Source: a virus
Reading direction: 5' to 3' (one strand)
DNA length: 41,694 nucleotides
IMG/VR virus record: IMGVR_UViG_3300033146_000618
Location: 1-41,694 of that record
The notes below the pieces were generated by a model that worked only from the letters and a program-made list of their open reading frames with translations, had not been told where the DNA came from and did not search any database. Shown piece after piece: positions 7,105 through 37,600 of this stretch (positions are counted from its first letter, which is position 1; the number at the start of each line of letters is the position of its first letter). The translations under genes were made by a program, and so were the position numbers.

Positions 7105-7276
7105 AGATTATAAAGAGGTACTTGAAATTTCTGTTACAAGTGATGATGTTAAAGTAATTACAGTAGTAAATACAGTATTTACAATTAATAATGATAATGA
7201 TACTGATTGTGGTATTACAAACAGAGAATCAAAAAAACCATTTATAAATCAATTAGAGGAAGATATTATAATATAA
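7091..7276 (+). CDS. Small hypothetical protein, 61 aa
   Basis: Beta-rich: EVLEISVTSDDVKVITVVNTVFTI followed by an acidic, polar tail. It overlaps the previous gene by 14 bases and its TAA overlaps the ATG of terL (TAATG), so it is translationally coupled to the terminase. Unrecognised. Confidence 0.5.
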   Translation: MAKIKDYKEVLEISVTSDDVKVITVVNTVFTINNDNDTDCGITNRESKKPFINQLEEDIII

Positions 7277-14158: not shown

Positions 14159-15610
14159 ATGAGTCTATTGCAAAGTAATTTGGTCACAAAACAAATGCCC
14201 TGGCATGCAAATATGACAGAGATGAACCATTTAGGTGCAGCTCTTATTGCAAAACCAGCAGTATTTGAATCCAAGATGAACCAATTGTTTACTGCACATA
14301 GATATTCTGACAACCCATTAACTTCCAACCTTGTTGGATTGGGTAAGGAAGAAACTATTGGTAGTACTCAATGGGAATGGGAATTGAAAGGGGCTAATAC
14401 CAGACCCCTTGTAATTGTTGAAAACCTTGAAGCTGGTAATGCTACACCAGGCAAGGGTAAACAAAATATCAAGGTTAAACTTGATGAAAATTGGTATCAA
14501 CCAGGTGATGTTATTTTTCCTGGAACTTCCAATAAAAAGTATCAATGTAGGATTCAGGAAGAAGTAAGAAAATCAGGTTCAGGAACAATTTATATTATCA
14601 GACAAATGACTGATGATCCAAATGCTTTTGTACCTCCAGCATTATTTACTCCTGGACAACAATGGGGAAAACTATATTCTCAATATGAAGAAGCTGCTGA
14701 ACAATCAGGTTCTACACAGTATAGTTTACCTATTGACTTTACCAATAGAATGGGTAGATACAGAAAAAAATATAAAGTTACTGGTGATGCCAGTGATGAA
14801 GTATTGGCTGTAAAACTTCAAGATTCTAATGGTAATTGGCATGATAGCTGGGTTAAATATGCAGAGGTTGAATATTGGCAACAATGGTACAGAGAACTTG
14901 AAAGAGGTTTCTGGTATTCAAGAAGTACTGATTCAGTATTAGGTGCTAATGGCAGACCTATTTTTAGTGGGCCTGGACTTCAGGAAATGCTTGAAGATTC
15001 ACATATCCATAGATATAGTCATTTAACTGCAAAGTTGATTGAGGAATATTTAATGGATATTTTTTATTCTCGTATTAAACCTGGAACTAAAAGGAAAATC
15101 AAAGGATTTACTGGTGAATATGGAATGTTAATCTTCCATAGAGCTATTCAATCATGGGCTGAAAAAACTGGATTTATTCAGATTGTTCAGGATTTAACCA
15201 TGAGTAAAACATCTTCTCCTTATAACTCTAATGCATTACAAGCTGGTTATCAATTTACCAAATATATCATGGCTAATGGTGCTGAATTAGAATTAGTACA
15301 TAATCCATTATATGATGATAGAGAAATTAATTTTGAGATTGATCCTTTAACTGGTTATCCAGTAGAATCACAAAGAATTACTTTCCTTGACTTTAGTGGT
15401 GAAGGTCAAAATTCTAATGTAAGAATTATAAACAAGAAAAATGGTTACAAACTTGGTTATGTAGCTGGTTTATCTAATCCTTATGGACCTAATGATGGTA
15501 AATTAATGAGCCATTCTGGTAACTACTATGAAATGCATGTTGAAAAACAAGTAGGACTTCATGTAGAAGATATTACAAGATGTGGTGAAATGATTTTAAC
15601 CAGAAACTAA
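14159..15610 (+). CDS. Major capsid protein, 483 aa
   Basis: HK97-fold shell protein. The call rests on position (after portal and scaffold), length near 490 aa as in crAss-like phages, the N-terminal SNLVTKQMPWHANMTEM region and the look of the whole sequence (SYNSNALQ-type loops, HVEDITRCGEMIL near the end). Codon use is richer in C-ending codons than the neighbouring genes, for instance in the first 60 codons, as often seen in the most highly expressed gene. A strong terminator follows directly (15622-15653), consistent with heavy transcription. No cleaved N-terminal delta domain is obvious, which fits a separate scaffold. Confidence 0.88.
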   Translation: MSLLQSNLVTKQMPWHANMTEMNHLGAALIAKPAVFESKMNQLFTAHRYSDNPLTSNLVGLGKEETIGSTQWEWELKGANTRPLVIVENLEAGNATPGKGKQNIKVKLDENWYQPGDVIFPGTSNKKYQCRIQEEVRKSGSGTIYIIRQMTDDPNAFVPPALFTPGQQWGKLYSQYEEAAEQSGSTQYSLPIDFTNRMGRYRKKYKVTGDASDEVLAVKLQDSNGNWHDSWVKYAEVEYWQQWYRELERGFWYSRSTDSVLGANGRPIFSGPGLQEMLEDSHIHRYSHLTAKLIEEYLMDIFYSRIKPGTKRKIKGFTGEYGMLIFHRAIQSWAEKTGFIQIVQDLTMSKTSSPYNSNALQAGYQFTKYIMANGAELELVHNPLYDDREINFEIDPLTGYPVESQRITFLDFSGEGQNSNVRIINKKNGYKLGYVAGLSNPYGPNDGKLMSHSGNYYEMHVEKQVGLHVEDITRCGEMILTRN

Positions 15611-18488: not shown

Positions 18489-19958
18489 ATGGATATAAAG
18501 AACGAATATTATAGATATATAGTAAAAGATAATGTATATACTATTGAAAATATACATGCTACATTGATTCTAAGATTTAGGTTAGTTAATGTAACTAAAA
18601 ATATGGTTATTACACCAACTAAATTTATGCAACCTGATGATATAGAAACATTAGAAATTACTGATGAAGGTGTATATGTAGCAGAATTATTTACAGGAAA
18701 TGGAGAAGAAAATATTAATATATATTATTATCCAATAACAAAAGAATTAGTTATTGATAATATGAAAGATATACTATGTGATTGTGATTCATTAGATTCT
18801 GTATGTGGTAATGGTGAAAGTCCAATTATAAAAAATAATAAAGAATTACAATTTTTATTTACATCTGTAAATTCTTATATAGATACTTTATTATCCCCAG
18901 ATTATGTTAAAAATTATATGTGTTGTTTTGGTGAGTTAATAAAAGGAGATTATAGAATGATGTCATATTTATCTAACTCCTATGATGCTTTAAATAGTAT
19001 AGGTAAATTACCAGATAACATTAATATTGTAAGATTATATACTTTATATAAATATATTCTATTGTATATAATTGAATTAGATTATGCAAGATTTGTTATA
19101 AAAGGTAATTCAATTATTCAACCACCTAATCCAATACCTGATGATCCAGGTAGAGATACAAGAGCATTGATAAATACTGATAGAGAAAGAATAGATAAAT
19201 TATTTGAATTAGGATATATAGAATCTTGTACAAAAGATTTAAATGTGGATATGAAAACATTAATTAATTCATTTGATGAATGTTATCAAACATATTCATA
19301 TAATGTTTGTATGAGTGGTATTAATCCTTGTCCTGGAAATTCAATGATATCTGGTCTTAAAATTAATGGTGTATTTAGAACACAAGGAGTTGGTGTACCA
19401 ATAAATGTATCTATATTCCAATGGGATATAGATTCTGGTGTACCTGAAAATTTAGTAATAAATGATAGTGAAGGACAAATAGTTAATGAAGAAGTTAGTG
19501 GTACATCACATACATTAGATACATCAAAAACTTATGTACTAAATAGTGTAGGAGATATCACTTGGTCATTAAAAGGTGATAATACTAATCAAGCTGAATT
19601 AAATGTTAAATGGGTAGAAGTTATTTATAAAGGTAAATTAACTGATGAAAGATGGCCTACAGAAACAGAAGTATTAGCAGGTGATAAAATTATAAGAGAT
19701 TTAACAGATAACCAATTTATATGGCAACCTGATACATTAATTACTGAAATAGCTTGGGTAGCAATACCTGTTTCAAGTGCTATAATGTTTACAGAATGGT
19801 TAGATTTAGCTACACAAACATCAGGACCAATATATGATGATGATAGTCTTAATTTTATGTTAAGACATGCTAATATTCAAGTAATTGATGGTGTAGATTG
19901 TTATCTTTATAGATTTGGTATGTTTACTCATTTTAATAACACTTTAAGATTATACTAA
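18489..19958 (+). CDS. Virion or fibre-associated protein, 489 aa
   Basis: Residues ~1-85 look like a beta-sandwich (TLILRFRLVNVTKNMVITPTKF). Then a Cys-rich knot, ILCDCDSLDSVCGNG, and a helical section with further Cys (YMCCFGEL, ESCTKD). The C-terminal ~180 residues are beta-rich again, with an Ig-like look (SGLKINGVFRTQGVGVPINVSIFQWD). I recall Cys-bearing proteins of this kind in the tail modules of gut phages but not a function. I set the start at the ATG at 18489, after the terminator. It ends in a TAATG overlap with the next gene. Confidence 0.7.
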   Translation: MDIKNEYYRYIVKDNVYTIENIHATLILRFRLVNVTKNMVITPTKFMQPDDIETLEITDEGVYVAELFTGNGEENINIYYYPITKELVIDNMKDILCDCDSLDSVCGNGESPIIKNNKELQFLFTSVNSYIDTLLSPDYVKNYMCCFGELIKGDYRMMSYLSNSYDALNSIGKLPDNINIVRLYTLYKYILLYIIELDYARFVIKGNSIIQPPNPIPDDPGRDTRALINTDRERIDKLFELGYIESCTKDLNVDMKTLINSFDECYQTYSYNVCMSGINPCPGNSMISGLKINGVFRTQGVGVPINVSIFQWDIDSGVPENLVINDSEGQIVNEEVSGTSHTLDTSKTYVLNSVGDITWSLKGDNTNQAELNVKWVEVIYKGKLTDERWPTETEVLAGDKIIRDLTDNQFIWQPDTLITEIAWVAIPVSSAIMFTEWLDLATQTSGPIYDDDSLNFMLRHANIQVIDGVDCYLYRFGMFTHFNNTLRLY

Positions 19959-20416
19959 TGGCTATAGAACATAATGAAGGCATATTGACTAAAACAAGGA
20001 AACCAACAGATATAAAATCTTATGTTGGTGATTCTCCTGAGTTTATGTATAAAACTAAAGAGGATATTCCAATACAATATAGATACCCTGGTATGATAGT
20101 ACATGAGTATTTAAATAAAACATGGAAAGATTATAAATGGAATGAAATTACTAAAGAATGGAATTTAATATCAAATACTATTATGATATTAAATCATTTT
20201 GCTTATATTCAACCTAAAAATACTATTGAAGATTTTGCAAGAATAGAAATACCAAAACAATACAATATTAATAATGCAATTGTAACTGTTAATGGAATTT
20301 TATTAACACAAGATTCTTCTTCAATTTATAAAATATATAAATCAAAAAACAAAACGATATTAGAATTAGAATTTCCATTAGAAACTAATGATATTGTTGC
20401 TGTTATAAAATATTAA
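19958..20416 (+). CDS. Small tail/fibre-associated protein, 152 aa
   Basis: N-terminal half has a short domain with VGDSPEFMYKTKEDIP, PGMIVHEY and WKDYKWNEITKEWNLI, the kind of tryptophan-bearing motif found in fibre-attachment domains. The C-terminal half (RIEIPKQYNINNAIVTVNGILLTQD...LEFPLETNDIVAVIKY) is beta-rich and resembles a domain common in phage tail proteins. It overlaps the upstream gene and lies two bases before the 825-aa fibre, so it may be its adaptor. Confidence 0.65.
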   Translation: MAIEHNEGILTKTRKPTDIKSYVGDSPEFMYKTKEDIPIQYRYPGMIVHEYLNKTWKDYKWNEITKEWNLISNTIMILNHFAYIQPKNTIEDFARIEIPKQYNINNAIVTVNGILLTQDSSSIYKIYKSKNKTILELEFPLETNDIVAVIKY

Positions 20417-20418
20417 TT

Positions 20419-22896
20419 ATGGCTAAGAATAAGAGTTTTTCAAATTTATTGCGTGAAAATCTGAATTTAGAAGGATTTAAAGTTGAAAATATGACATCAA
20501 ATTTTGGTGTAGCACATTCAGCAGGTAGTACAGTATATGATAAGACTGCAAAAAAAGTGTATACTATATTAAGAAATACAACACCAAAAGATACATTACT
20601 TGATTTATTTAATTCTAATGATTTAGCAACATTAAGTTCAACAGCTGCTGGTGGTATGACTACATGGATAGTAAAAGGTAAAGATTCTACTGGTGCTGAT
20701 ATAACAATTGATATTACTGAAAATGAATTAGTTGAATTTATAAGTGGTAAAAGTATAAATGTAGTTACTGAAATTAATACAAGTGGTGCTAAAATTGAAA
20801 TAGGTATAAAAGATAACAGTATTGATGAAAGTTCATTAAAACTTAGTAATTCTCCAATAACATTTGCAGATGTACCTGTATGTTCTGATGGAGCAGGGGG
20901 ATTTAGATATAATACATTACCTGCTGGATTAATGGATAACTTTGAATTTTGGAGTGATGGAGTAGGTATAACTATAGGTTCACATGATGTTGTAAATCTT
21001 ATTGGTGGAGCTAATATAACATTAACAGGCACAGGTAGGGTAAATGGTGGAGTAGATATTGAAATAGCAGCTACAGGTGGTGGTACTGGTGGTATGACAT
21101 CTTTTGATATTAAAGTTAATGCTGCAATTATCACAATAGATGATGGGGAACAAATAGAATTTGAAGGTTTTAGTCCTGTTGTAGTATTAGGATCAAATAC
21201 AGGAACAGGGATAAAAATAAATGTTGGATTAGAAAATCATTCTATTAAAGAAGAATATTTAAAAGGTCTTGGTACTGGTGTAACTAATCAAGTATTAGCA
21301 AGTGATGGAGCAGAAGGTTTTACATGGATTAATAATAGTGGTGGTGGTGGAATGACTTCTTTTATTGCAAGAGTAAAAAGTATAGGTACAGATTTAGTAA
21401 TTAATGATGGTGAAGTATTACAATTTTCACCTTATGGACCTATAGAATTACTTCCATCAGCTTTAGGTACAGGTGGTAATATAAATGTGGCTATAAAAGT
21501 AGATTCAATAGATGAACAATATTTAAAAGGTTTAGGTGTAGGCACATCAGGACAAATATTATCAAGTGATGGTGTTAGTGGATTCAAATGGATAAATAGT
21601 GGAGGTGGTGGAGGTATGACATCATTTGATTTAGAAGGTGATAATGGTATTATAGAAACTATTACAGATGGCAGAAAAATACATTTAAAAGGTTCAACAG
21701 GAATAGAGATTACTGTAGATACTGGTATATCTAATGAAGCATTAGCAGTAGTTGAAATAGAAGATAATAGCATAACTCAGGAAAAATTAAAATTACTTGG
21801 ACATACATCACAAGTAAATATACCTGTGTGTTCTGATGGTAGTGGTGGATTTGTATATAGTTCTTTACCTGAAGGATTAATGGATCAATTTAAGTTTTGG
21901 ACTAATGGAGCTGGTATGGATATTAATTCACAAGATGTAATTAATCTTATTGCTGGTACAAATATCACTTTAACAGGTACAGGTAGAGTAGGTGGAGGTA
22001 TAGATGTTCAAATTGATGCTTCTGGAGGTAGTGGAGGTATGACTTCTTTTACAATGAAAGGGCCACCAAATGTTAGTGTACCAATGACAGATGGAGATGA
22101 ATTTGAATTTGAAGCTATTGATCCTATATTATTAAATACATCAGTAGATTCTACAAATGGTGGTGGAGGTATGTTCATTAGTTTGAAAACTAATGCAATT
22201 ACAGATTCATATTTAAAAGGTGGAAATGGTGGAGTATTAGACCAAATACTTGCAAGTGATGGGGCTGATGGATTTAAATGGATTAATAATACTTCATCTG
22301 GAATGACATCATTTGATGTAGTTGGAGCAGGATCACCTTTTACAATTATAGATGGTGAAGAACTTAAATTTACAGGATATGCCCCTATTGAAGTAATAAT
22401 AACAAATACTGCATCAGGTGGAGAAGTAAAATATGGATTAAGTGCTAATGGTATTACTGTTACGCATATAAAAGGTGTTGGTTCTGGAACATTAAATGAT
22501 GCATTAGTAAGTGATGGAGGTGATGGTTTTGCATGGAAAAGTAGTATCCATAGTTTAGAATTTGGTAGTGGTGCAGCACAACATCCATTAAGTGATGGAG
22601 ATGTAATAAAAATTGAAGGATTTGGTGCTATTGATGTAATAGATTTTGGAACAGGATATGTTAAAGTAGCAATAAAAGATAATTCAATTGATGATGGTAT
22701 GTTAAAAGGTGCTGGTTCTGGAAATGTAGGTAATTATTTAAAATCTGATGGTGCTGGTGGATTTTCATGGGATACTACAGTACATAATTTTGCTAAACCT
22801 GAACCAATATCACCAGATGAAGGTGATGTATACTTTGATGTAAATATAAAGAAATTAAGATGTTGGGATGGAACTCAATGGAATAATCTCTGGTAA
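20419..22896 (+). CDS. Repetitive tail fibre protein, 825 aa
   Basis: Built of about seven units, each opening with GMTSF or GMTTW after a glycine-rich linker, then a DGE...F strand pair, and a closing unit of the type SIDEQYLKGLGVGTSGQILS. Some units carry an inserted block (PVCSDGAGGF...GLMDNFEFW...NITLTGTGRVNGG). The C-terminus ends EGDVYFDVNIKKLRCWDGTQWNNLW, a motif seen at ends of many phage fibres. A trimeric beta-helical shaft is likely. Low charge and many Gly, Ser and Thr fit an extracellular fibre. Repeated units at DNA level make copy-number change by recombination likely. Confidence 0.8.
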   Translation: MAKNKSFSNLLRENLNLEGFKVENMTSNFGVAHSAGSTVYDKTAKKVYTILRNTTPKDTLLDLFNSNDLATLSSTAAGGMTTWIVKGKDSTGADITIDITENELVEFISGKSINVVTEINTSGAKIEIGIKDNSIDESSLKLSNSPITFADVPVCSDGAGGFRYNTLPAGLMDNFEFWSDGVGITIGSHDVVNLIGGANITLTGTGRVNGGVDIEIAATGGGTGGMTSFDIKVNAAIITIDDGEQIEFEGFSPVVVLGSNTGTGIKINVGLENHSIKEEYLKGLGTGVTNQVLASDGAEGFTWINNSGGGGMTSFIARVKSIGTDLVINDGEVLQFSPYGPIELLPSALGTGGNINVAIKVDSIDEQYLKGLGVGTSGQILSSDGVSGFKWINSGGGGGMTSFDLEGDNGIIETITDGRKIHLKGSTGIEITVDTGISNEALAVVEIEDNSITQEKLKLLGHTSQVNIPVCSDGSGGFVYSSLPEGLMDQFKFWTNGAGMDINSQDVINLIAGTNITLTGTGRVGGGIDVQIDASGGSGGMTSFTMKGPPNVSVPMTDGDEFEFEAIDPILLNTSVDSTNGGGGMFISLKTNAITDSYLKGGNGGVLDQILASDGADGFKWINNTSSGMTSFDVVGAGSPFTIIDGEELKFTGYAPIEVIITNTASGGEVKYGLSANGITVTHIKGVGSGTLNDALVSDGGDGFAWKSSIHSLEFGSGAAQHPLSDGDVIKIEGFGAIDVIDFGTGYVKVAIKDNSIDDGMLKGAGSGNVGNYLKSDGAGGFSWDTTVHNFAKPEPISPDEGDVYFDVNIKKLRCWDGTQWNNLW

Positions 22897-22942: not shown

Positions 22943-25900
22943 ATGGCTAAATTAAAATCTAAATATAGAACTAAAACAGGGAGATGTCATTGTATACCAA
23001 ATAGTACAACACCACCTTTACCCCCAAGATTATTTGAAGTATTAGTAACATCACCTGCAATGTTTAGTGTACAGGATGTATTAGGTGGTACTATTACTAT
23101 AGATGATAATCTAAATGGTACATTTACTATGTGGAGTTATGATCCAATTACTGCATTTAAATTTCATATTGGTAAAACTGATATTACAAGAGTAAGAGTT
23201 ATTAAAGGTTTAACATTAACAACTTTTGATAGAACTTGTATGGGTATGATAAATATGACACATTTTATATGGAATGGGTTATCTAATATCACAGATGCAA
23301 CTGGTGCATGGTATTCTTGTACATCTTTAACATCATTGACAGTAAATACAGGAAAAGTTACTGATTTCACTTTTGCATGGATGCGTTGTCAATCATTGAC
23401 ATCATTTCCAAATATTGATACAAGTAAAGGTACAAATTTTATAAATACTTGGGCAGATTGTAATTCTCTAACTTCTTTTCCTGCATTGGATTTCAGTAGT
23501 GGAACAACATTTGCTAATACATGGAGAGATTGTTCTTCATTAGTTTCATTCCCTGCTGTTGATATGAGTGTTGGTACAAATTTTAATCAAACATGGAGAA
23601 ATTGTACAAGTATGACAACATTTGGTGCAGTAGATATATCTAGTGCAACAATGTTAGTAAGAACTTGGGAAGATTGTAGAGCATTAACAACATTCCCTGT
23701 ACTTGATACAAGTAATGTTACTGATTTTAGTCATACTTGGGATAGTTGTGTATTATTAACTTCTTTCCCTCTATTAGATACAAGTAGTGGTGATGTATTT
23801 ACAGGTACATGGAAAAATTGTGCAAGTTTAACTACTTTCCCATTAATTGATACAACAAGTGCTATTACTCTTATTGAAACATGGAGTAATTGTTCAAGTT
23901 TAACAAGTTTCCCATTAATTGATACAAGTGGTATAAATGATTTAAGTAATGCTTGGATGAATTGTTCAAGTTTAACTGTATTTCCATTAATAGATACAGC
24001 AAGTGTTACAAGTATAATTAATACTTGGTATGGATGTTCAGCATTAGAATCATTACCAGCTTTAGATACAAGTTCTGTATCAAAAATGAGTTTTGCTGTA
24101 GCTAATTGTACATTATTAGAATGTATGTCAGCATTAGATACTACATCATTAAGTGGTGCATTAGGTGATGCAGAAGGAGTATTTGAAAATTGTCCTGCTT
24201 TAATACAACCTTCAGCAACAGGTACATCTGTAAGAAATAATGATGATGCAGTAGCAGGTGGTACTTGGGTTAATTCAGGTCCTTGTCCCATTATAACTTA
24301 TACTTTAGAAATATTAATTACATCTACATTAGCACCTACTGTAAAAAATGTAACAGGTGGTAGTATAGGAATTATAGATAATTTAAATGGTACATATACA
24401 TTATGGAGTGGAGATGTAATTACACATTTTAAATTAGATGCTAATAAAATGGGTATTAGTGAAATAGAAGTAATTAAAGGTGATACATTAACATCATTAG
24501 CAGGTACATTTGAACTGTGTAGAAATATGACAACTTTTACTTGGCATGGAGCATGTAATTCTACTGATTTTAGTACTACTTGGAATTTATGTAATAATTT
24601 AACACCATTTCCAATAATAGATACAAGTAATGGTACTAACTTTCGTGCAATGTGTAATGAATGTACAAGTTTAACTACATTTCCTTTAATTGATACAAGT
24701 AATGCTGTTGATATAAGTAGTGCTTGGCGTGGTTGTACTAGTTTAACTGCATTCCCTGCACTTGATACTTCTAATGTTACTACTATGCATAGTAGTTGGG
24801 TTGAATGTACAAGTTTAACTTCATTTCCTGCAATTAATACAAGTAAAGTTACTGAGTTTATTAATACATGGGCATATTGTAATTCTTTAGAATGTTTAAT
24901 TGAATTAGATACTACAGCAATTACAACAGACCAGACAATGACATTTGATCATTGTACAGCATTAGTAGCTCCTGACCAACCTACAAGAGATGCTTTAATG
25001 ACAGTAGCAGGAAAAGGTACTTGGACTAATGCACATGCTTGTCCTCCATTACCTTATCCTATAATTACAGATTTTGGAGATGAAAGTCATGAAGATAATG
25101 AAACTAATGTTATTCTAACAGGAGTAACATTTGGTACTACTCAGGGTACAGGTCAAGTAATATTTGCTACTGAAGATACATGGGCAGCAGTAACAACTAA
25201 AGCTGTTCAAGTTATTAATTCTTGGAATAATACTTCAATTAATTTGAATATAACACCTTGTTCATTTGTTCCTGGTCCATTATATGTATATGTTACAAAT
25301 GATGCTGGTCATACAAATGATACAGGTTATGCATTTGCAATTACAAGATTACCAAGAGTACTTGAAATTATATTAGAAACTACAGCAGCACCAACATTGA
25401 TTGATGTTGTAGGTGGTACTATAAATATAATTGATAAATGTAATGGTACTTATGCATTGGAAAGTTTTGATCCAATTACTGAATTTAAAACAGATGGTAA
25501 TGAAGATTTAATAACTAAAATTAATGGTATTAAAACTGATACATTAACAACTGGTTTTTCAATGTTCTCCAATTGTACAGGTTTAATAGAAGTAACAGCA
25601 TTTGATACTTCTAATATGACATCAATGCATAATATGTTTATTAATTGTTCATCATTAACAACAATGCCAGCATCACTTGATACAGCTAAAGTTACTGTAA
25701 CACAAAATATGTTTAATGGTTGTACAGTATTAGCTGCTGTACCATCACTTAATACAATTAATGTAATAAGTATGAATGGTATGTTCCATGAATGTAAAGC
25801 ATTAACTACTATACCACCATTAGATATGAGTAATGTAACTATGTCTGATGGTATGTTCTTTGGTTGTTCTAATATTACTACAGTACCAGCTATGAATATG

Positions 25901-28900
25901 ACTAAAGTTGAAATAGCAAGAAATATGTTTAAAGGATGTACATTATTAGAATATATACCTGCAATACAACCTTTAAATGTATATGATATGTATGGTATGT
26001 TTGAAAATTGTACTTCTTTAACTTGTTTAACAGAATTTAATACTACTGCTGTAACTGATGGTAATAATACATTCCTTAATTGTCCATTATTAGCACATCC
26101 AGCACCTACAGGTTCATCAATCAGAAATGGAGATAATGCTGTACAAGCTGGTAATTGGATTAATTCAAGTCCTTGCCCTGTATTACCTTATCTCTTAGAA
26201 ATATTAGTTACATCTCCTACTGAACCTGGAACTACAGATGTAGTAGGTGGTACTATTACTGCAATAGATAATTTGAATGGCACATTTACATTATGGAGTA
26301 CTGATACTATTACTTCATTCAAATTTGGTGCTAATAAAACTGACATAACAACAATTGAAGGTGTTATAACAAATACATTAGAAGGTATAGATAATACATT
26401 TAATGGTTGTACTGGATTAACAAGTATAGTAACATTTGATATATCAAATGTAATAACAGCTATTAGTGCATTTGGTGGTTGTACATCATTAATAACATTA
26501 CCAGCATTAAATACTGTTAATATAACTGATATGACAAGTATGTTTGAAGGATGTATTAAATTACAATGTTTAATGGGATTTGATACAACTAATGCTGTAA
26601 ATGTAACAAATGTATTTTTAAATTGCCCAGCATTAGTAGCACCTTCAACCACAGGTACACCAATTAGAAATGGAAGTGATGCTGTAGCTGGTGGAGGTAA
26701 TTGGGCAAATGTAAATGCTTGTCCATTGTTACCATTAGAATCTTATCCTGATTGGGATTTAATTCTTGGTACAACACCAAGTCCTACAGAATATTGTGTG
26801 GCAACAGATACTATTTATAATAGTGCTATTTTAACATCATTAGATTTATTCTTTTTCTCTAATGGAGGAACTTTAGTAGAAGATGTTGATATACAATCTA
26901 TAATTCTTTATGAAGGTACAGATATGACTTATGGTTCATATTTTATGGCTAAAGGTCTTGATGCTGATAATTTTGTAGGTATTACATCTTATAATAATCA
27001 AGTAATGTTATATGAAGTATCTGGTGGTAGTTGGAATGATTTAGGTATTGGAATACCAGTTGCAGGAACTTTAGGTAAGAGAATAAGATTTAAAACTGTT
27101 GGTGATCAAGCAAGTTTATATGTTGCTAATGATGGTGATCCTATTGATGATGGATTAGTAGGTACAGCTACTTATACTGTTGCAGTACAAAGTTATCCTG
27201 GTATAGTATTAAGAGAACATCCAACAGTAGAAGCATTATTTAAAAATTGGAGTTTAACTGTACTTGCTTCAAGAACATTAGATATATTAGTTACATCACC
27301 TACTCCACCTACTGTGAAAGATACTGTTGGTGGTACTGTAACTGTTACTGATAATGGTGGTGGTACTTATAGTATTTGGAGTTCAGATACAATTACCCAT
27401 TTTAAAATAGATAGTGGTGCTGATATTACTGAAATTGAAGGTATTAAAACTGATACTTTAACTGATATGACAGAAATGTTTGCACATTGTATATTATTAA
27501 CAACGGTAACAGCATTTGATACTTCTAATGTAACTACAATGGAAAAAGCATTTATGAGTTCTAAAATAACTACAATGCCTGTATTTAATACGACTAATGT
27601 ACTTAATATGAATCAAATGTTTGCAGGTTGTACATCATTAAGTACAATACCATTATTTGATACAGTTAATGTAACTGATATGGCTGATATGTTTAATAAT
27701 TGTGGAAATTTTGATACGATGCCTTTATTAGATACAAGTAGTGTAACTACTATGGCTCGCATGTTTAGTAGTACAATAATAACAACAATACCATTATTAA
27801 ATACCAGTAATGTAACTAATATGCAAAGTATGTTTAGATTTTGCAGTTTATTAATAGATATTCCATTATTAGATACATCAAGTGTAGAAGGAATGATTGG
27901 AATGTTTGATGGATGTACAACATTAACAACAATTCCTTTATTAGATATGAGTAATGTTACTCAAATTGAATTTATGTTCAATGATTGTAGCAATTTAGAA
28001 TCATTACCTGCTTTAATTACATCTTCTGTACATAATTTTAATAGTGCTTATAAAAATTGTTCAGTTTTAACATGTTTAACAGTTCTTGATACAACTTCTA
28101 TAGTATCAGATCAAACAGATGTATTTGTTGGATGTACAGCATTAGTAGCTCCAGATGTAGCAACCAGAGATGCATTAATGTTAGTTGCTACTAAAGGAAC
28201 ATGGACTAATCCTAATACTTGTCCTTATAACCCATTACCTATTATTACTGACTTTGGAGATGAGGATCATCTTGTAAATGAAACTAATGTAGTATTGACT
28301 GGTACAGATTTTGAAACAACACAGGGAGTTGGTAAAGTATTATTTGCAGCAGAAGATACTTGGGCTGCTGTAACAACAACTGTAGAACAAACTATTAATA
28401 CTTGGGGTGATACTTCAATTGATTTAAGTATTGTACAAGGAGCATTAACTACTGGACCGTTATATGTATATGTAACCAATAACACAGGTAATACTAATAC
28501 CACAGGTTATGCATTTACATTAACTGCATTACCTATAATACCTGCAATAACAGATTTTGGAGATGAAGATCACAAAACTGATGAAACAGGTGTTATTTTA
28601 ACAGGAACAGATTTTGAAGCAGTACAAGGAACAGGTAAAGTATTATTTGCTATTGAAGATACATGGGGTGCTATCACTACAACTGTAGAACAAACAATAG
28701 TTTCTTGGACTGATACATCTATAGAATTAGATATTGTACCAGGAACATTGCCAACAGGAACTTTATATGTATATGTAACTAATAATGATGGAAATACAAA
28801 TCCAAATGGTTATATGTTTACATTAACACCTGCAATAAAATTATTAGATATATTAATAACTACACCTGCTGCACCAACAGTTAGAGATGTTGTTGGTGGT

Positions 28901-31543
28901 ACTATAGATGTAATTGATAATGGTAGTGGTACATATACTTTAGAAAGTCATGATGCGATTACACATTTTAAATTAGATGCTAATGTAGATGTCATTACTA
29001 AAATTGAAGTAATTGATGGTCATACATTAACAGAACTAAATGAAACATTTGTAAATGGTTATGTACTTACAGAATTTATATGGTCTGGTGCTGTATGTCA
29101 TGTTATTAGTATGGAACTTGCTTTTAGAAATTGTAATGCTTTAACAACATTTACAATGGATACAAGTAGTGTAGAAAATATGGGTGGTATATTTGGTCAT
29201 TGTAGAGGATTAACTACTGTACCTACTCTTAATACTTCAAATACAACCAATTTACAATTTGCTTTCTTTGGATGTACAGGATTAACTTCATTTCCTACAA
29301 TGGATATGTCTAAAGTTATTAATTTTAGTCATACATGGAATGGATGTACAAATTTAAAATGTTTAACAAATTTAGATACTTCTGCAATTGTAACAGACCA
29401 AATAGATGTTTTTGTAGATTGTCCAGCATTAGTTGCACCTGATACAACAACAAGGGATGCCTTAATGACTGTAACAGGTAAAGGTGTATGGACTAACCCA
29501 AATACTTGTCCTTATATTCCATTACCTGTTATTACTGATTTTGGTGATGAAGATCATGAAACTGGTGAAACTAATGTAATATTAACAGGAATAGATTTTG
29601 AAACTATTCAAGGTGCTGGACAAGTATTATTTGCTGCTGAAAGTACTTGGGCTACTACTACTACAACAGTATCACAGACTATTAATAGTTGGAGTGATAC
29701 TTCGATAGATTTAACTATAGTTCAAGGAGCATTAGCTTTAGGAACATTATATGTATATGTAACAAATAATACAGGTAACACTAATGCTACAGGTTATGCA
29801 TTTACATTAAGTACTATAGTATATGCATTTGAAATGTTAGTTACTTCACCAATTACACCAACAATATCAGGAGTAAGTGGTGGTACAATAGATATTGTTG
29901 ATAATACAAATGGTACATTTACTTTAAAAAGTAGTGATCCTATTACTAGACTTAGATTTGATAGTAATGGTGATATTACTAAAGTTGAAGGTATATCTAC
30001 TAATACTTTAACATCATGTAAAGATTTATTTGATGGTTGTGCTGCTTTAACAGAAATAATTGGATTAGATGTATCTAATGCAACAAATATAGGAAGTATG
30101 TGTAGTATATGTAATTCATTAATATCTGCTGAAATATTAAATACATCTAATGCAGAAGATATGCAATATGCTTTTTTTGGTTGTACTGCTTTAACCACTT
30201 TATCACCATTAACTACAGATAAGGTAACTAATATAAATAATATGTTTAACACTTGTTCTAATTTAACTTCTATATCATTTACAGATACACCTGAATTAAC
30301 TGATATGACAAATGCATTTAGAAATTGTACTGGTTTAACAGCATTACCAACATTAAATACTTCAAAAGTACAATTGATGGGTGGAGCATTTTATGAATGT
30401 GAGAATTTAACTAATATACAAACTTTAGATACAAATCTTGTTACTGATTTATCTGAAACATTTTATAAATGTAGGAAATTAACAAATATATCATTAACTA
30501 CTACAAATAATATGAATAATATGTTTAATGCATTTAATGGTTGTACTGCTTTAGAAAATATATCACCATTAAATACAGGTAATGTTACTAATTTTGGAAA
30601 TGTATTTAGAAATTGTACTTCTTTAGAATGTTTAAATCAATTAGATACAAGTGCGATTACAGTAGACCAAATTGATGCATTTTATAATTGTACATCATTA
30701 ATAGAACCAGATGCAATAATGAGAGATGGATTAATGACTGTTACACGCAAAGGAAGTTGGACTAATCCAGGAGCTTGTCCTATTGTTTATAAAAATTCTG
30801 AAACATTAATTACTGCTTCTGCTGCATTTACTGTTAAAGATGTAATTGGTGGTACTTTAACAATTGATGATTTAGGTAATGGTACATTTAAAGTATGGAG
30901 TGATGGTAATATTACATCATTTAAAATTGATACTGGCAAAGAATATATTACTAGAATTCAATTATTATCAGCAGCAACATTAACTAATTTAGATGGAGCA
31001 TTTGCTAATTGTACTGCTTTAGAATATTTCTTATTTGATGGTGAATGTAATGTTACAAGTATGATTTCAACATTTACAGGATGTACATCATTAGTTGATT
31101 TAAATATTTCAAATGCTGGAAGTATAACTAATTTCACAGGTACTTGGAGTGGTTGTACTACATTGACTGAATTTCCTGCATTAGATTTCTCAGGTGCTAC
31201 AACACTTGATTATACTTGGGAAGGATGTACTGCATTAACTGGATTTCCTGCTATTGATACATCATCTGTAACAAGTTTAACTGGTACATGGAAAGATTGT
31301 TCATCAATGCTTTCTCATGGTGGTATAATTGCTGATAATGCAGAATATGTAATAGATACTTGGAAAAATTGTTTTGCTCTTATTTGTATTGGTGGAACAT
31401 TAAATTTCAGTAGTTTAGTTGATGGTACAAGTGCTTTCTTTGATTGTGATGATTTAGTAGAACCTATAATATCAGGAACACCTGTAAGAGTTGGTAATAA
31501 TGCGACAAATGGTACTTGGACTAATGCTGGTACTTGTCCATAA
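22943..31543 (+). CDS. Giant BspA-like (DUF285) LRR adhesin/tail fibre, 2,866 aa
   Basis: Eight blocks start with a short beta domain of the type LEILVTSP...DVVGGTI...DNLNGTFTLWS..DPIT.FK, then carry BspA/DUF285 leucine-rich repeats of ~23 residues (pattern F..TW..C..LT.FP.LDTS..T), each with one conserved Cys, and most end PALVAP...TGT.RN.D.AVAGG.W.N...CP. Blocks begin near 23030, 24300, 25361, 26193, 27277, 28841, 29824 and 30796. Four IPT/TIG-like domains (ITDFGDE...ET.V.LTG..F...QG.G.V.FA) lie near 25057, 28237, 28541 and 29524, and a lectin-like domain at ~26737-27270. No signal peptide or membrane anchor, so it is a virion protein. DUF285 repeats are known in bacterial surface adhesins of gut and oral Bacteroidota. 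Likely role: contact with host cell or gut surface glycans or proteins. Confidence 0.85.
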   Translation: MAKLKSKYRTKTGRCHCIPNSTTPPLPPRLFEVLVTSPAMFSVQDVLGGTITIDDNLNGTFTMWSYDPITAFKFHIGKTDITRVRVIKGLTLTTFDRTCMGMINMTHFIWNGLSNITDATGAWYSCTSLTSLTVNTGKVTDFTFAWMRCQSLTSFPNIDTSKGTNFINTWADCNSLTSFPALDFSSGTTFANTWRDCSSLVSFPAVDMSVGTNFNQTWRNCTSMTTFGAVDISSATMLVRTWEDCRALTTFPVLDTSNVTDFSHTWDSCVLLTSFPLLDTSSGDVFTGTWKNCASLTTFPLIDTTSAITLIETWSNCSSLTSFPLIDTSGINDLSNAWMNCSSLTVFPLIDTASVTSIINTWYGCSALESLPALDTSSVSKMSFAVANCTLLECMSALDTTSLSGALGDAEGVFENCPALIQPSATGTSVRNNDDAVAGGTWVNSGPCPIITYTLEILITSTLAPTVKNVTGGSIGIIDNLNGTYTLWSGDVITHFKLDANKMGISEIEVIKGDTLTSLAGTFELCRNMTTFTWHGACNSTDFSTTWNLCNNLTPFPIIDTSNGTNFRAMCNECTSLTTFPLIDTSNAVDISSAWRGCTSLTAFPALDTSNVTTMHSSWVECTSLTSFPAINTSKVTEFINTWAYCNSLECLIELDTTAITTDQTMTFDHCTALVAPDQPTRDALMTVAGKGTWTNAHACPPLPYPIITDFGDESHEDNETNVILTGVTFGTTQGTGQVIFATEDTWAAVTTKAVQVINSWNNTSINLNITPCSFVPGPLYVYVTNDAGHTNDTGYAFAITRLPRVLEIILETTAAPTLIDVVGGTINIIDKCNGTYALESFDPITEFKTDGNEDLITKINGIKTDTLTTGFSMFSNCTGLIEVTAFDTSNMTSMHNMFINCSSLTTMPASLDTAKVTVTQNMFNGCTVLAAVPSLNTINVISMNGMFHECKALTTIPPLDMSNVTMSDGMFFGCSNITTVPAMNMTKVEIARNMFKGCTLLEYIPAIQPLNVYDMYGMFENCTSLTCLTEFNTTAVTDGNNTFLNCPLLAHPAPTGSSIRNGDNAVQAGNWINSSPCPVLPYLLEILVTSPTEPGTTDVVGGTITAIDNLNGTFTLWSTDTITSFKFGANKTDITTIEGVITNTLEGIDNTFNGCTGLTSIVTFDISNVITAISAFGGCTSLITLPALNTVNITDMTSMFEGCIKLQCLMGFDTTNAVNVTNVFLNCPALVAPSTTGTPIRNGSDAVAGGGNWANVNACPLLPLESYPDWDLILGTTPSPTEYCVATDTIYNSAILTSLDLFFFSNGGTLVEDVDIQSIILYEGTDMTYGSYFMAKGLDADNFVGITSYNNQVMLYEVSGGSWNDLGIGIPVAGTLGKRIRFKTVGDQASLYVANDGDPIDDGLVGTATYTVAVQSYPGIVLREHPTVEALFKNWSLTVLASRTLDILVTSPTPPTVKDTVGGTVTVTDNGGGTYSIWSSDTITHFKIDSGADITEIEGIKTDTLTDMTEMFAHCILLTTVTAFDTSNVTTMEKAFMSSKITTMPVFNTTNVLNMNQMFAGCTSLSTIPLFDTVNVTDMADMFNNCGNFDTMPLLDTSSVTTMARMFSSTIITTIPLLNTSNVTNMQSMFRFCSLLIDIPLLDTSSVEGMIGMFDGCTTLTTIPLLDMSNVTQIEFMFNDCSNLESLPALITSSVHNFNSAYKNCSVLTCLTVLDTTSIVSDQTDVFVGCTALVAPDVATRDALMLVATKGTWTNPNTCPYNPLPIITDFGDEDHLVNETNVVLTGTDFETTQGVGKVLFAAEDTWAAVTTTVEQTINTWGDTSIDLSIVQGALTTGPLYVYVTNNTGNTNTTGYAFTLTALPIIPAITDFGDEDHKTDETGVILTGTDFEAVQGTGKVLFAIEDTWGAITTTVEQTIVSWTDTSIELDIVPGTLPTGTLYVYVTNNDGNTNPNGYMFTLTPAIKLLDILITTPAAPTVRDVVGGTIDVIDNGSGTYTLESHDAITHFKLDANVDVITKIEVIDGHTLTELNETFVNGYVLTEFIWSGAVCHVISMELAFRNCNALTTFTMDTSSVENMGGIFGHCRGLTTVPTLNTSNTTNLQFAFFGCTGLTSFPTMDMSKVINFSHTWNGCTNLKCLTNLDTSAIVTDQIDVFVDCPALVAPDTTTRDALMTVTGKGVWTNPNTCPYIPLPVITDFGDEDHETGETNVILTGIDFETIQGAGQVLFAAESTWATTTTTVSQTINSWSDTSIDLTIVQGALALGTLYVYVTNNTGNTNATGYAFTLSTIVYAFEMLVTSPITPTISGVSGGTIDIVDNTNGTFTLKSSDPITRLRFDSNGDITKVEGISTNTLTSCKDLFDGCAALTEIIGLDVSNATNIGSMCSICNSLISAEILNTSNAEDMQYAFFGCTALTTLSPLTTDKVTNINNMFNTCSNLTSISFTDTPELTDMTNAFRNCTGLTALPTLNTSKVQLMGGAFYECENLTNIQTLDTNLVTDLSETFYKCRKLTNISLTTTNNMNNMFNAFNGCTALENISPLNTGNVTNFGNVFRNCTSLECLNQLDTSAITVDQIDAFYNCTSLIEPDAIMRDGLMTVTRKGSWTNPGACPIVYKNSETLITASAAFTVKDVIGGTLTIDDLGNGTFKVWSDGNITSFKIDTGKEYITRIQLLSAATLTNLDGAFANCTALEYFLFDGECNVTSMISTFTGCTSLVDLNISNAGSITNFTGTWSGCTTLTEFPALDFSGATTLDYTWEGCTALTGFPAIDTSSVTSLTGTWKDCSSMLSHGGIIADNAEYVIDTWKNCFALICIGGTLNFSSLVDGTSAFFDCDDLVEPIISGTPVRVGNNATNGTWTNAGTCP
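23030..31530 (+). repeat. Modular repeat array within the giant fibre gene
   Basis: Eight copies of the DUF285 block, of about 240-520 codons each including inserts, fill nearly the entire gene. Adjacent IPT-like units near 28237 and 28541 form a tandem pair with a ~304-bp period. Copies have diverged at the DNA level but share stretches encoding TSPxxPTVxDVxGGTI and the Cys-bearing repeat turns. Confidence 0.8.
26737..27270 (+). other. Lectin-like domain inside the giant fibre
   Basis: Between the fourth and fifth blocks is a segment unlike the repeats: SYPDWDLILGTTPSPTEYC, SLDLFFFSNGG, FMAKGLDADNFVGIT, then RIRFKTVGDQASLYVANDGD and FKNWSLTVLAS. The order of strands resembles a concanavalin/LamG-like jelly roll, which often binds sugars. 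This is a by-eye fold guess. Confidence 0.4.
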
Positions 31544-31556
31544 AAAATTGGAAATT

Positions 31557-31700
31557 ATGATTTTATTATTGGAAAATGATATAATTAATACTATAGCTGC
31601 TGATAAGATTGGAGCAATTGGATTGTTCATACTCTTATTAGTAGCTATGATATTCATCTTTTGTTATAAAACTTATAACAATATGAAAAGAAAAAAATAA
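31557..31700 (+). CDS. Small membrane protein, 47 aa
   Basis: One hydrophobic helix (IGAIGLFILLLVAMIFIFCYK) follows a short polar N-terminus (LENDIINTIAADK) and is followed by a basic tail (NNMKRKK). I chose the ATG at 31557, 13 bases after the previous stop, over an upstream start inside the giant gene. Positively charged C-terminus predicts an N-out orientation. It could be a holin or a small membrane factor for lysis, since the lysin is in the same late run, but similar peptides have many roles. Confidence 0.55.
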   Translation: MILLLENDIINTIAADKIGAIGLFILLLVAMIFIFCYKTYNNMKRKK

Positions 31701-31725
31701 TATTATATTTGTTAAATAAATTAAG

Positions 31726-32523
31726 ATGATAGACAAAAGATTAAAATTATTACGAATTATTGATAGATTAGGTATTGAACATGCTTTTAAATTAAGAGAA
31801 ATAAAAGGAAGTTATCAATATGAATATGTTACTGCATTAGGTCAAGATAGCATTAATGATGGATTAGCTGGTGATTATTATTGGGATGAAAATTCATTAG
31901 AAGATGATAATAGACTTACTGTATTAAAACCTGATGCTATTAATAATGACAAACCTGGAAGATGGATAAGAGTTAAAATACCAATTACTAATAAAAGATT
32001 GCATATTGAAAGTGAAATTCTTTATAAAAAGAATATTAATATTATTAAAAATGCAATAAAAAAAGAACCATTTGAAATTCCAGATGCATTATTTAAAAAT
32101 TATGATTATAAAAATTCTTATATCTTCAATGGAAATGCAAGAACTTCTATACTCACAAATACTGTTATGTCATCATTATCTACAGGATTTACTTTTAATG
32201 CATCTAAAGGTATTATAACTAATACTACAGGTAAATCAATAGTAGTTAATATAGATATAATTATCAATGGTCATATAAAATCAATGCATTATCATAATGT
32301 TATTAAAAGTATTGATGTTATATTAAAAATTAATAATTCTCATACTATTATAACACCTGTAAATGAATTGATACAAGAGTCTGGAAATTGTGTACACATT
32401 AAAGAAAAAGTAAAATTAGAACCTAATGATAAAATACAAATGTTTATTGAGCCTAAATTAATTAGTGATAATGGTCAAACAATTATGTATTTGTCAAAAT
32501 TGAATATTACTATAAAAGAATAA
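31726..32523 (+). CDS. Head or tail fibre with C-terminal jelly roll, 265 aa
   Basis: Residues ~1-90 contain YYWDENSLEDDNRLTVLKPDAINNDKPGRWIRV, a short phage-fibre domain pattern ending in GRW.RV. The C-terminal ~140 residues alternate strands (FTFNASKGIITN, KSIVVNIDIIING, SIDVILKINN, KVKLEPNDKIQMFIEP, YLSKLNITI) like a C1q/TNF-type trimeric jelly roll, the usual tip of short fibres. Likely a trimeric fibre, perhaps of the head as known in crAss-like virions. It precedes the ring-protein genes by two bases. Confidence 0.65.
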   Translation: MIDKRLKLLRIIDRLGIEHAFKLREIKGSYQYEYVTALGQDSINDGLAGDYYWDENSLEDDNRLTVLKPDAINNDKPGRWIRVKIPITNKRLHIESEILYKKNINIIKNAIKKEPFEIPDALFKNYDYKNSYIFNGNARTSILTNTVMSSLSTGFTFNASKGIITNTTGKSIVVNIDIIINGHIKSMHYHNVIKSIDVILKINNSHTIITPVNELIQESGNCVHIKEKVKLEPNDKIQMFIEPKLISDNGQTIMYLSKLNITIKE

Positions 32524-32525
32524 TT

Positions 32526-33182
32526 ATGAAGATAGGAGAAGTAATAGCAAGAGTACAATCACTATATTCAAAAGGTGTATCATCTGATGATTCAAGATTA
32601 TCAGATAAACATATCTATAATAAATTATTAACAGTTAGAAGTAAACTACTAATTGAAGATGATAGAAAATATAGAACTGCTGATGAATTAGTTACTCAAT
32701 CATTATATGTAGATTTGGTTAAGTCTAAACAATTACCTTGTGGTGGATTAACTAAATGTACATCAATGATTTCTAAAAATGAAATACCTGTATTTATATC
32801 CAATAGCAAAACAAATTTATTAGATGTATATTCTGAAAATATGTTAATTCATTTTAATAGAATAACTCAAATGGATGTTAGAAGATTAGCTGGAAGTAGA
32901 TATGGTAGAAAAGCTGAATATTATTTCTTTGATGAAAGAAAATTAGTAGTATTAAACTCCAAAATCAAAAGATTAATTATTGATACTATTTGGGAAGATC
33001 CTATTAAAATTTATAGACTTACTGAAGAATGTTTAGGATTACCTTATGTTGATAATAAAGAAATTGATTTTTATACTCCAGCTAATTTAATTGACACTAT
33101 TGTAGGATTTACAACTGAAGAATTAATAGCTAACTTTATGAAAATGAAAGAAGATGAAAATAATAACTCAAACGAAGATTAA
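32526..33182 (+). CDS. Putative portal-vertex ring protein, 218 aa
   Basis: Starts MKIGEVIARVQSLYSKGVSSDDSRLSDKHIYNKLLTVRSKLLIED, followed by YVDLVKSKQLPCGG, a YYFFDERKLVVLNSKIKRLI segment and a Pro/Tyr-rich C-terminal half ending in an acidic tail. The pattern is familiar from the gene just before the IHF-like and tail-adaptor genes in crAss-like genomes. It probably helps build the collar stacked below the portal. Its position is the main evidence. No enzyme motif is present. Confidence 0.7.
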   Translation: MKIGEVIARVQSLYSKGVSSDDSRLSDKHIYNKLLTVRSKLLIEDDRKYRTADELVTQSLYVDLVKSKQLPCGGLTKCTSMISKNEIPVFISNSKTNLLDVYSENMLIHFNRITQMDVRRLAGSRYGRKAEYYFFDERKLVVLNSKIKRLIIDTIWEDPIKIYRLTEECLGLPYVDNKEIDFYTPANLIDTIVGFTTEELIANFMKMKEDENNNSNED

Positions 33183-33700: not shown

Positions 33701-34648
33701 ATGGAATTTACATCAATAGATAGAATATTCAATATGGTGGCAAGAGATTTACCACACATTAAAATTAATGATATTGATATAGTAGAATGGACAGGTGATG
33801 CTTTGCAATTTATAAATGCAATAAGAGCAAAAGAAGAAGCAGTTGCTTTTATAAAAGTAAGTAATTATCAATGTGATTTACCTGCTAATTTGCATAATAT
33901 TATACAAATAGCAAAGAATACTAAAGTTGATGATGGTGGTGCTAAAGTTATTAAATCTCAGGAAGATGAAACATTTAATACTCCTGATTATCCTGTATGT
34001 ATTGATTGTGAAGGAAAACCTTATGATGAAACAAGAGTTGCATATTATAGACCATACTATGATTTAAAATATGAATATCAAGCATGGATGGCAATGGATT
34101 CTTATGAAAGATGTTATGAACCTGTAAGATTATCTAATCATCATTTTTTTAATACATTAGTTTGTTCTGAAAATGGTACTGATTGTGGTATAGATGGAGA
34201 ATTATATCATACAAAAAAATGGGAATATAATATTATAATGGGTAAAGTATTAAGATTTAATTTTGAAAAAGGATTAATTGCTATAGCTTATGAAAGAAAT
34301 CCTCATGATGAAGATGGTTTACCTTTGATTCCTGATGACATTTCCTATACTACAGCTATTATATCATATATACAAATGAAGTATGCTAAGAGAGAATTTA
34401 TGGCAGCTAAACAAGGTGCAGAAGGAAGATATAGAGTAGCATTAGATGATTGGACATGGTATGTAAAACAAGCAAGTAATAAGTCATTAATACCTAATGG
34501 TGTTGATGAAATGGAAGATTTAGTTAATCAACAGAAAAGACTTATACCAAGAAGAAATCTTTATGATAACTATTTTGGTAATGCTAATAATAGAGAAATT
34601 AAAAATATATTAACAAATAGACAAACAAAAAATGTCAAAATTGGATAG
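33701..34648 (+). CDS. Tail adaptor / tail stabilisation-type protein, 315 aa
   Basis: Begins MEFTSIDRIFNMVARDLPHIKINDIDIVEWTGDALQFI, a helical start typical of connector proteins that are grouped with P22 gp4-like tail stabilisation proteins. A Cys-bearing domain (PVCIDCEGKPYDE, YERCYEPV) is followed by NFEKGLIAIAYERNPHDEDGLPLIPDDISYTTAI, and a helical C-terminus. It ends with TAG within the first codons of the muzzle gene, a 17-base overlap that couples their translation. Confidence 0.75.
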   Translation: MEFTSIDRIFNMVARDLPHIKINDIDIVEWTGDALQFINAIRAKEEAVAFIKVSNYQCDLPANLHNIIQIAKNTKVDDGGAKVIKSQEDETFNTPDYPVCIDCEGKPYDETRVAYYRPYYDLKYEYQAWMAMDSYERCYEPVRLSNHHFFNTLVCSENGTDCGIDGELYHTKKWEYNIIMGKVLRFNFEKGLIAIAYERNPHDEDGLPLIPDDISYTTAIISYIQMKYAKREFMAAKQGAEGRYRVALDDWTWYVKQASNKSLIPNGVDEMEDLVNQQKRLIPRRNLYDNYFGNANNREIKNILTNRQTKNVKIG

Positions 34649-37600
34649 TTCTATACAGAAATTAATAGGTGGCATTAATACTGATGTATCACCAAATGAT
34701 CAACCTGAAGGTACTTATAGGTTTGCATTAAACTGTGTGAATCAATCTGATACAGGTGATATTGGTAATTTAATTACTGAACAAGGTAATATATTATTCA
34801 AAAGTACAAAATTGAATGTAAGACCTTATGGATATACTTCAATTGAAATACCATTTTCTATAATAGGTAGTATATATATTGGTGATGATGAACATGCAAT
34901 ATTTGGTGTAACTGCTAATGGAAGTGATAGTTTTATAGGTATTTTAAACAAAAATATAACAATATCTCTATATGATAGAGGAAATAAAAATTTAAAATTT
35001 AGTATTGAACATCAAATTACAGGTGAATATAGATTAAGAAATGGATGTGAAAAAACTATATATTGGGTAGATGGTGTAAATTCAATAAGAAGTTTAAATT
35101 TTAGTGAAAATTATAATAGTGATGCTTATAATCAATGGCTTGAAGATTATAATGAATGGTTAGAAAATCAAACTTTACCATTACCACCTTATGTTGATAA
35201 TGAAATTAATTATATAAAATTAAAATTAATAAAACATTCAGAAAAAGTACCAACATTTGAGAATATAGAAGTAGTATCTGGTGGTAATTTAAAATCAGGA
35301 ACTTATAATTTTGCAATTAAATATGTAGATGACAATGGAAATGATACAGTATGGTTATCTACTTCTCAATTAGTATCAATTTATAAAAGTAGTACAACAG
35401 GAAGTAATTATGATGGTATTGTTGGTTCTATAAATGATACAGGTGATGGAGAAAATGTTGAAAATGTAGCTTTTGGTGAAACACCAGCTAATAAAAGAAT
35501 TGAATTAACAATTGATAATTTAGATGAAAGTTATCCATTTTATAGAATTGGTGTAATTGAAGCAACATCTGATGTTGGTACACCAACAAGAGTATTAGAA
35601 TCTACAAATCAATTAATTAAGAATAAAATATTTGTACATGATGGTAATGAATCAAAATATACAGTATTACCTGTAGAAGATTTAATATCTGATGTTGCAA
35701 ATATAGATGCAGCACAACATATTGAACAAATAGAAGATAGATTAATTATAGCAAATACAAAAAATAATACTAAAGATTATTGTAGTTTACAAAGATTTGC
35801 ATCATTAATAACTTCTGAATATGTAGTTGATGAAATTGAAACTTATAATGCTTCACAAGTAGGAGATTCAAAAAATCCTAAATCTTATTTTGAAAAAATA
35901 AGTTATATGGGTGGAGAAGTTTATGCTTTTGGTATTGTATATATATTTGAAGATGGTACTCAATCTCCTGCTTATCATATTCCAGGTAGACCTGAAACAC
36001 CTGATGGTATAGATAGAACACTTGTTGGACCTGATAATAGAACTGCTCATATTGATGATATGACACCAATAGAAGCATGGAGAATATATGATACTGCTTC
36101 AGGTTCTTATGTAAGACCAATGGGTAATTTAATGGCATTTTGGGAAATGTCTACTGGAGAATATGATCCAAAAGAAACTTGTGATGATGAAGATTATTGG
36201 GGTATAGATGGATATGATTATAGTGGACAATCTTTAACAGGACAAAAAATAAGACATCATAGATTTCCAAATAGAGTTACAATACCACATCATGAATCTG
36301 TAGGAACAATAACAACACAAAGAAATACTATTATAAAAATAACTTTAGATTGGTTATTTAAAACACCAGGAGGAGAATTATATGACCGAAGTTATGTTGT
36401 TGTTTATGATGTTGAAACAGATCCAATAAATGATCCAGGGGTAATAGAAACAAAAACTATTCAACAATATATAACAAAAGAATATATTAATGATCCAAGT
36501 AATCCAGATCATTTTTATTCAATAGTTGTAGAAGGAACTGTAAAAGGTGCTTATGTTGTACCAAATCATAATGGTCAGCCAAATCCTATATATCCTTTTT
36601 TAAAACATTATAGTATTAACGATTTAGATGATGGTATACCAGCAACAAAAACAGTTTTAGATCCTGTACAACCATATTGGTTAGAAGTTGCTTATGGTAG
36701 ACAAACTGTCCCAAATGAATATGGAACATTAAATTTACTTGGAATAAAATTTGATAATATACAATTACCTGATGGTGTTTCAGGTTATAGAATAGTTAGA
36801 GCTGAAAGAGATAATTTTAATAGAACTGTATTAGCAAAAGGTTATTCAGGTGTTACAAAAAAAGTTGGTGATTATATGGGTTTTGCAAGAATGATAGAAC
36901 CATATTGTCATCCTTCAAATGCTAATCCACCAGATCACATGTTTGATTCATTTAATAAATATATATTAACACCTGAATCATTATTTGAAAATAAAGAACC
37001 AGAACCATCTTATGTAAAAGTTGAAAGAGTTTATGAAATAACAGGAAGTAGAAATGAAGGTGCTTTTACTGATGTTTATCAAAATATAAATGATGAAAGT
37101 ACAGGATTTATAGCTGATAGTGATGGATATGATTGGGTTGGAACTTTTAGTTATATAAAAGTAGCAACTGTAAATAATACATTTCCATTAACAGGTGGTG
37201 ATGATAAAAATACAGCAGTATTAGATGTTAATTATTTATTATATACATCATCAAAGAGTGGATATGATATAAGTATTGATCCATCAAAACCTGATATAAA
37301 AAAATTATATAATGGTTCAATGGATAATAAAGTTGGTATATTTAAAATGCATAATGAATATAAAGCTAAAATAAATAATCCAACTGACCCTTCTTGGGGT
37401 GATATTGTACCAAGTACAAGAACTAAAAAAATATATTATACATCATTATTAAGAGAAATAGATGTACATCCTATATTAGATAATATTGAATATTTTCAAA
37501 CTAAAAATAATATTCAAACAGGGACATCAAATACTAATTTTGGTGGAGATACATTTATTTCACATTTTTATTTAACAAATACAACATATCAAGGTTTTAC

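Follow-up and report, generated by a model that had tools for sequence, protein, structure and literature searches.

Phage proteins built from BspA-type leucine-rich repeats (LRRs; Pfam DUF285) are already on record, some of them larger than the one described here. The Klebsiella phage ST16-OXA48phi5.4, a P2-like member of the Peduoviridae, encodes gp35, a polypeptide of ~1,000 residues that combines Tail_P2_I, Big_2, and LRR_5/DUF285 domains. The amino terminal Tail_P2_I domain is a physical anchor, and this fusion ties BspA repeats to a phage tail component. Sphingomonas phage PAU gp103 is a giant DUF285 protein of 1,857 residues (E = 1.9e-271) with a PKD-like N terminus; its gene is followed by uncharacterised neighbours and then a DNA polymerase, and PAU is not a member of the Crassvirales. 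The jumbo myovirus Vibrio phage vB_VhaM_pir03 has two DUF285/BspA proteins of putative role, ORF200 and ORF287, and ORF200 is given as ~19 kb (PMC7765460). A further BspA-type case is the 'putative tail protein' of S-CBWM1. Two DUF285 proteins of Aureococcus virus AaV were detected in purified particles by proteomics (PMC7507832). The bacterial BspA/DUF285 surface proteins and those of AaV belong to the repeat family of the protein described here, in different hosts, and the bacterial proteins are secreted or anchored.

In the otherwise well-solved virion of the Crassvirales, the appendages are the part seen in least detail, and little is settled about which domains read the host surface. The crAss001 appendages gp21, gp22, and gp29 have short N-terminal docking segments, and the fibres dock through their first 26-58 residues to capsid hexons or tail hubs (PMC10172136). 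LRRs are not reported in these fibres (PMC10172136), and their genes lie elsewhere in the genome than the gene described here. Our literature search, which was short of most subscription journals, found no paper on LRR/DUF285 tail proteins in the Crassvirales. With a giant DUF285 protein in a Crassvirales genome, this order joins the phage groups that make use of BspA-type LRRs. Because phage proteins of this type were on record before, known biology is not overturned; the novelty lies in the Crassvirales setting and in a layout of eight blocks spaced by IPT-like domains.

Domain organization of the giant protein

The window, meaning the whole stretch of DNA that was analysed, is 41,694 nt long (IMG/VR virus record IMGVR_UViG_3300033146_000618, positions 1 to 41,694) and is a fragment of a Crassvirales phage genome. 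Pfam identified the major capsid protein (14159-15610; Crass_capsid, PF23898), ring protein 2 (32526-33182; CrAss_Ring_2, PF25702), ring protein 1 (33701-34648; CrAss_Ring_1, PF24228), and the muzzle protein (34632-39680; crAss_MUZ and crAss_MUZ_C, PF25731), all on the plus strand of one contig. Other genes encode a terminase with an intein, a portal, and a glucosaminidase-type endolysin. The nearest named phages are Fpv1 and its kin, which infect Flavobacterium psychrophilum and whose capsid proteins are 62% identical; environmental contigs carry capsid proteins with 84-96% identity. Judging from these relatives, the host is presumably a member of the Bacteroidota. The intein in the large terminase (7207-10452) has a LAGLIDADG endonuclease, spans about residues 457-783, and is absent in relatives, which align on either side of it. 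A 241-residue protein at 4533-5258 combines a crAss001_48-related domain with a Tad2-like (Thoeris anti-defence 2) domain.

The giant gene is a single plus-strand open frame that runs from the ATG at 22943 to the stop at 31543 and encodes 2,866 residues. DUF285 (PF03382) matches the protein in 11 separate stretches with E = 6.2e-88 and 291 bits against a curated cut-off of 25. These stretches fall into eight DUF285/BspA-type LRR blocks of 181-422 residues. Every block is closed by an N-terminal beta cap, 'GGTIxIxDNxNGTYTLWSxDxIT', and a C-terminal 'GxWxNxxxCP' cap, and the DNA repeat family that encodes the N-terminal cap (D10) has exactly 8 copies. The repeat unit is 24 residues with one Cys, and 43 C-x23-C pairs were counted compared to a mean of 2.8 and a maximum of 8 in 1,000 shuffles. 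In BspA/TpLRR-type repeats, a Cys at the F..C..L position is commonplace and does not set this protein apart. With block 5 as the reference, the other blocks are 36-52% identical. The sequence shows neither a signal peptide nor a membrane segment or anchor, and no hydrophobic stretch occurs at the N terminus or elsewhere, so the protein lacks the signal peptide and surface anchor of the bacterial BspA proteins. The original prediction of a single 8.6-kb gene with eight DUF285-type blocks, one Cys per repeat, and neither signal peptide nor anchor, which it proposed to check by profile search, is borne out by these data.

The protein starts with 29 residues (MAKLKSKYRTKTGRCHCIPNSTTPPLPPR; 22943-23029) for which no homologue was found and which might be a docking peptide. 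Block 1 (residues 30-451; 23030-24295) is the longest with ~13-14 repeats and is followed by block 2 (residues 453-702; 24299-25048), the first IPT-like domain (residues 704-805; 25052-25357), block 3 (residues 805-1080; 25355-26182), and block 4, the shortest at 181 residues (1082-1262; 26186-26728). A stretch of residues 1263-1443 (26729-27271) separates block 4 from block 5 (residues 1444-1762; 27272-28228). IPT-like domains 2 (residues 1763-1863; 28229-28531) and 3 (residues 1864-1965; 28532-28837) stand in tandem before block 6 (residues 1966-2190; 28838-29512), and IPT-like domain 4 (residues 2192-2293; 29516-29821) precedes block 7 (residues 2294-2614; 29822-30784). Block 8 (residues 2618-2866; 30794-31540) ends the protein with GTWTNAGTCP. 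All of these features are on the plus strand.

Monomer models were computed with AlphaFold2 using the window's own blocks as the alignment. Block 5 is predicted as a confident solenoid (pLDDT mostly 75-94), and block 4 has pLDDT values mostly of 86-96 over its first 130 residues. A profile (A1) matches the BspA-like crystal structures 4gt6 and 4fs7, and numerous fold matches in BFVD are 'BspA family LRR surface proteins' of phages and giant viruses. Foldseek searches of the PDB returned LRR-plus-Ig proteins, plexin IPT3-6, NFAT-type chains, and InlB. These results identify the blocks as LRR solenoids.

The four IPT-like domains of ~100 residues are 65-75% identical to one another. Their best match to Pfam TIG (PF01833) has E = 0.4 and 11.1 bits, below the cut-off of 20.9. 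The model that contains IPT-like domains 2 and 3 matches plexin IPT3-6 and NFAT/TonEBP (Foldseek E ~4e-6 to 4e-5) with low TM-scores, and the domains are predicted as Ig-like but more weakly than the blocks (pLDDT 50-70). The IPT-like assignment in the original prediction has tentative support from the fold match and falls short of the Pfam cut-off. The rest of its anatomy stands except for the one lectin-like domain, placed at residues 1263-1443, which matched nothing in Pfam, the PDB, or phage sequences and was modelled with pLDDT <50. Related IPT-like domains also occur in a Maribacter phage. The viral contig L107 (3-3152) carries tandem IPT-like domains of the window type beside repeat-rich fibre-like genes.

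A hypervariable slot and its contents in relatives

The giant gene sits in a hypervariable slot with the capsid-side genes on its left and ring protein 2 on its right. Genes are conserved through a ~490-residue protein (18489-19958; found in relatives G015, G005, and G008) and a 152-residue protein (19958-20416; found in G015 and G005) at the left border, and from ring protein 2 onward at the right. A 529-residue frame from 18369 was rejected as the start of the former because it is over-extended by ~40 residues; the homologues start at 18489. Relatives with capsid proteins 62-86% identical have unrelated large proteins in the slot with almost nothing in common. In DNA alignments, the relatives compared match the window at 65-87% along the backbone, and within the slot only over the first ~600 bases of the 490-residue gene. 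Between the border and the giant gene lies a gene for an 825-residue fibre-like protein (20419-22896); all of these genes are on the plus strand.

Slot proteins of G008 (L092:5661-17903) and G005 (L094:1-3795, minus strand) have Bacteroidota-type Sec signal peptides at their start. They include proteins of 2,053 and at least 1,265 residues without a Pfam match, and the 2,053-residue protein has almost no phage relatives.

A homologue of the giant protein was detected in the same slot of G015 (IMGVR_UViG_3300033143_005712), whose capsid protein is 86% identical. This 351-residue protein (L090:6756-7811) has one LRR block (tblastn E = 5e-24) with the same GTWTNxGTCP end and lacks an IPT domain. 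Its block sits behind an N-terminal domain, 'FGxxREAGTxxYDKxxKKxYxLL', that is absent from the giant protein. Three more copies of this fibre N-terminal domain are present in the G015 slot. The HMM built from three G015 proteins has a sole match outside G015, the N terminus of the 825-residue protein that adjoins the giant gene (E = 2.8e-6). Thus, a single G015 protein unites the LRR block and the domain, and two neighbouring genes encode them in the window. Among the present data, this is the strongest evidence that the giant protein may belong to the same appendage.

The block profile was searched against 50 records, and G015 alone has a related block among the 47 Crassvirales relatives, Fpv1 included, many of which are fragments that end short of the slot. 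Pfam PF03382 by itself missed the G015 block, which was detected by the block profile and by tblastn. Exact-pattern scans of viral contigs with the giant protein, block 5, the C-terminal cap, and the 825-residue protein gave almost no matches, which is weak evidence of absence because sequences this diverged escape exact-pattern seeding. A tblastn search with the giant protein matched 88 phage records, and among the matches listed none is named crAss-like.

Proposed role of the giant protein

These data suggest that the giant protein is a virion-associated host-recognition adhesin of a Crassvirales phage infecting Bacteroidota that acts with the adjacent 825-residue fibre, and we put the probability of this reading at roughly 0.7. 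We infer its presence in the virion, its attachment to or beside the 825-residue fibre, and its binding to a receptor. The adhesin role is supported by G015, where the single-block homologue in this slot is fused to the fibre N-terminal domain, and by the P2-like phage, in which repeats of this kind are joined to a tail protein I domain. Like the giant protein, gp35 of that phage has BspA-type LRRs, and an Ig-like domain lies on the same chain as the predicted IPT-like domains do in the giant protein, although it is anchored by its own N terminus and comes from an unrelated phage family. Host recognition is consistent with the DUF285 match, the crAss context, the hypervariable slot, the phage matches in BFVD, and the lack of a signal peptide, and with the recurrence of IPT-like domains beside repeat-rich fibre-like genes. 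Against this reading, no docking domain was identified in the giant protein itself, and the block occurs in only 1 of the 47 relatives, many of them fragments.

The eight BspA-type LRR solenoids, linked by IPT-like spacers, would be held out from the particle alongside the 825-residue fibre. By analogy with crAss001, the giant protein may dock through its own 29-residue N terminus or through its 825-residue neighbour. The eight LRR surfaces would then be presented to the host and could bind surface glycans or outer-membrane proteins. The original prediction called the protein a giant fibre. An adhesin-type role in a phage structural context agrees with the data, but the strict sense of fibre is unsupported: LRR solenoids differ from trimeric beta fibres, and the N-terminal docking domain found in the 825-residue neighbour and in the G015 homologue is missing from the giant protein. 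The multi-block adhesin and the one-block fused homologue are concrete, expressible modules for binding tests in crAss-like phages.

An alternative that we regard as unlikely places the protein in the virion as an environmental adhesin for mucus, biofilm, or extracellular polysaccharide and leaves host recognition to the 825-residue fibre. BspA repeats are known from adhesins, the two fibre-like proteins are separate and lie side by side, and BACON, PKD, and other Ig-like proteins of gut phages, including crAss-like phages, mediate epithelial binding (PMC13370021). However, in G015 the block directly follows the fibre N-terminal domain within one protein, and nothing indicates that the phage came from the gut. 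The gut mucus binding considered in the original prediction is not upheld, as Flavobacterium psychrophilum is the host of the nearest named phages and no link to the gut was seen.

A further point against host recognition by the virion is that a phage gene transcribed with structural genes may encode a protein outside the particle, as the slot proteins with Sec signal peptides in G008 and G005 indicate. The operon could be a mere transcription unit and the giant protein could be made for the infected cell, where it would be displayed or released. The relatives show that the slot can hold exported proteins, but the giant protein has neither signal peptide nor anchor and adjoins a protein with the shared fibre N-terminal domain, and we consider this explanation improbable. 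It is very hard to credit that the protein serves chiefly as a structural spacer or whisker for tail reach, with LRR blocks that have no specific ligand: the long, repetitive, multi-domain layout of eight similar blocks would fit, but blocks this diverged and this variable in length are unlike a uniform spacer.

Origin and evolution of the LRR blocks

The block copies of the host-recognition candidate appear to be old: in the DNA repeat families listed for the giant gene, copy pairs share at most ~80% identity, and exact repeats reach no more than 27 nt. These values do not support a recent intragenic duplication. Recent acquisition is also unsupported, as the GC and GC3 (0.078) of the gene match those of its neighbours. 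When genomes were scanned for bacterial donors, neither the C-terminal cap nor the IPT domain gave a match. The proposal that the module layout is made for recombination was only half right: the slot is swapped between relatives, but the old copies and the short exact repeat do not support shuffling of blocks within the gene. Block counts are 8 in the giant protein and 1 in the G015 protein. A doubtful extension of these data is that the LRR solenoids form a swappable recognition repertoire, with blocks that move within the slot between a docking fusion, as in G015, and an eight-block arm, as in the window. If so, one particle would carry several different LRR binding faces at once.

Further features of the slots were recorded. 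The G015 slot has four tandem genes or gene pieces with the common fibre N-terminal domain (L090:6547-8854), which suggests duplication of docking units. In G015, G008, G009, G019, and Fpv1, an exonuclease-like gene immediately precedes the gene for ring protein 2; the window lacks it there (31543-32526). A 47-residue frame with one predicted membrane segment (31557-31700) directly follows the giant gene.
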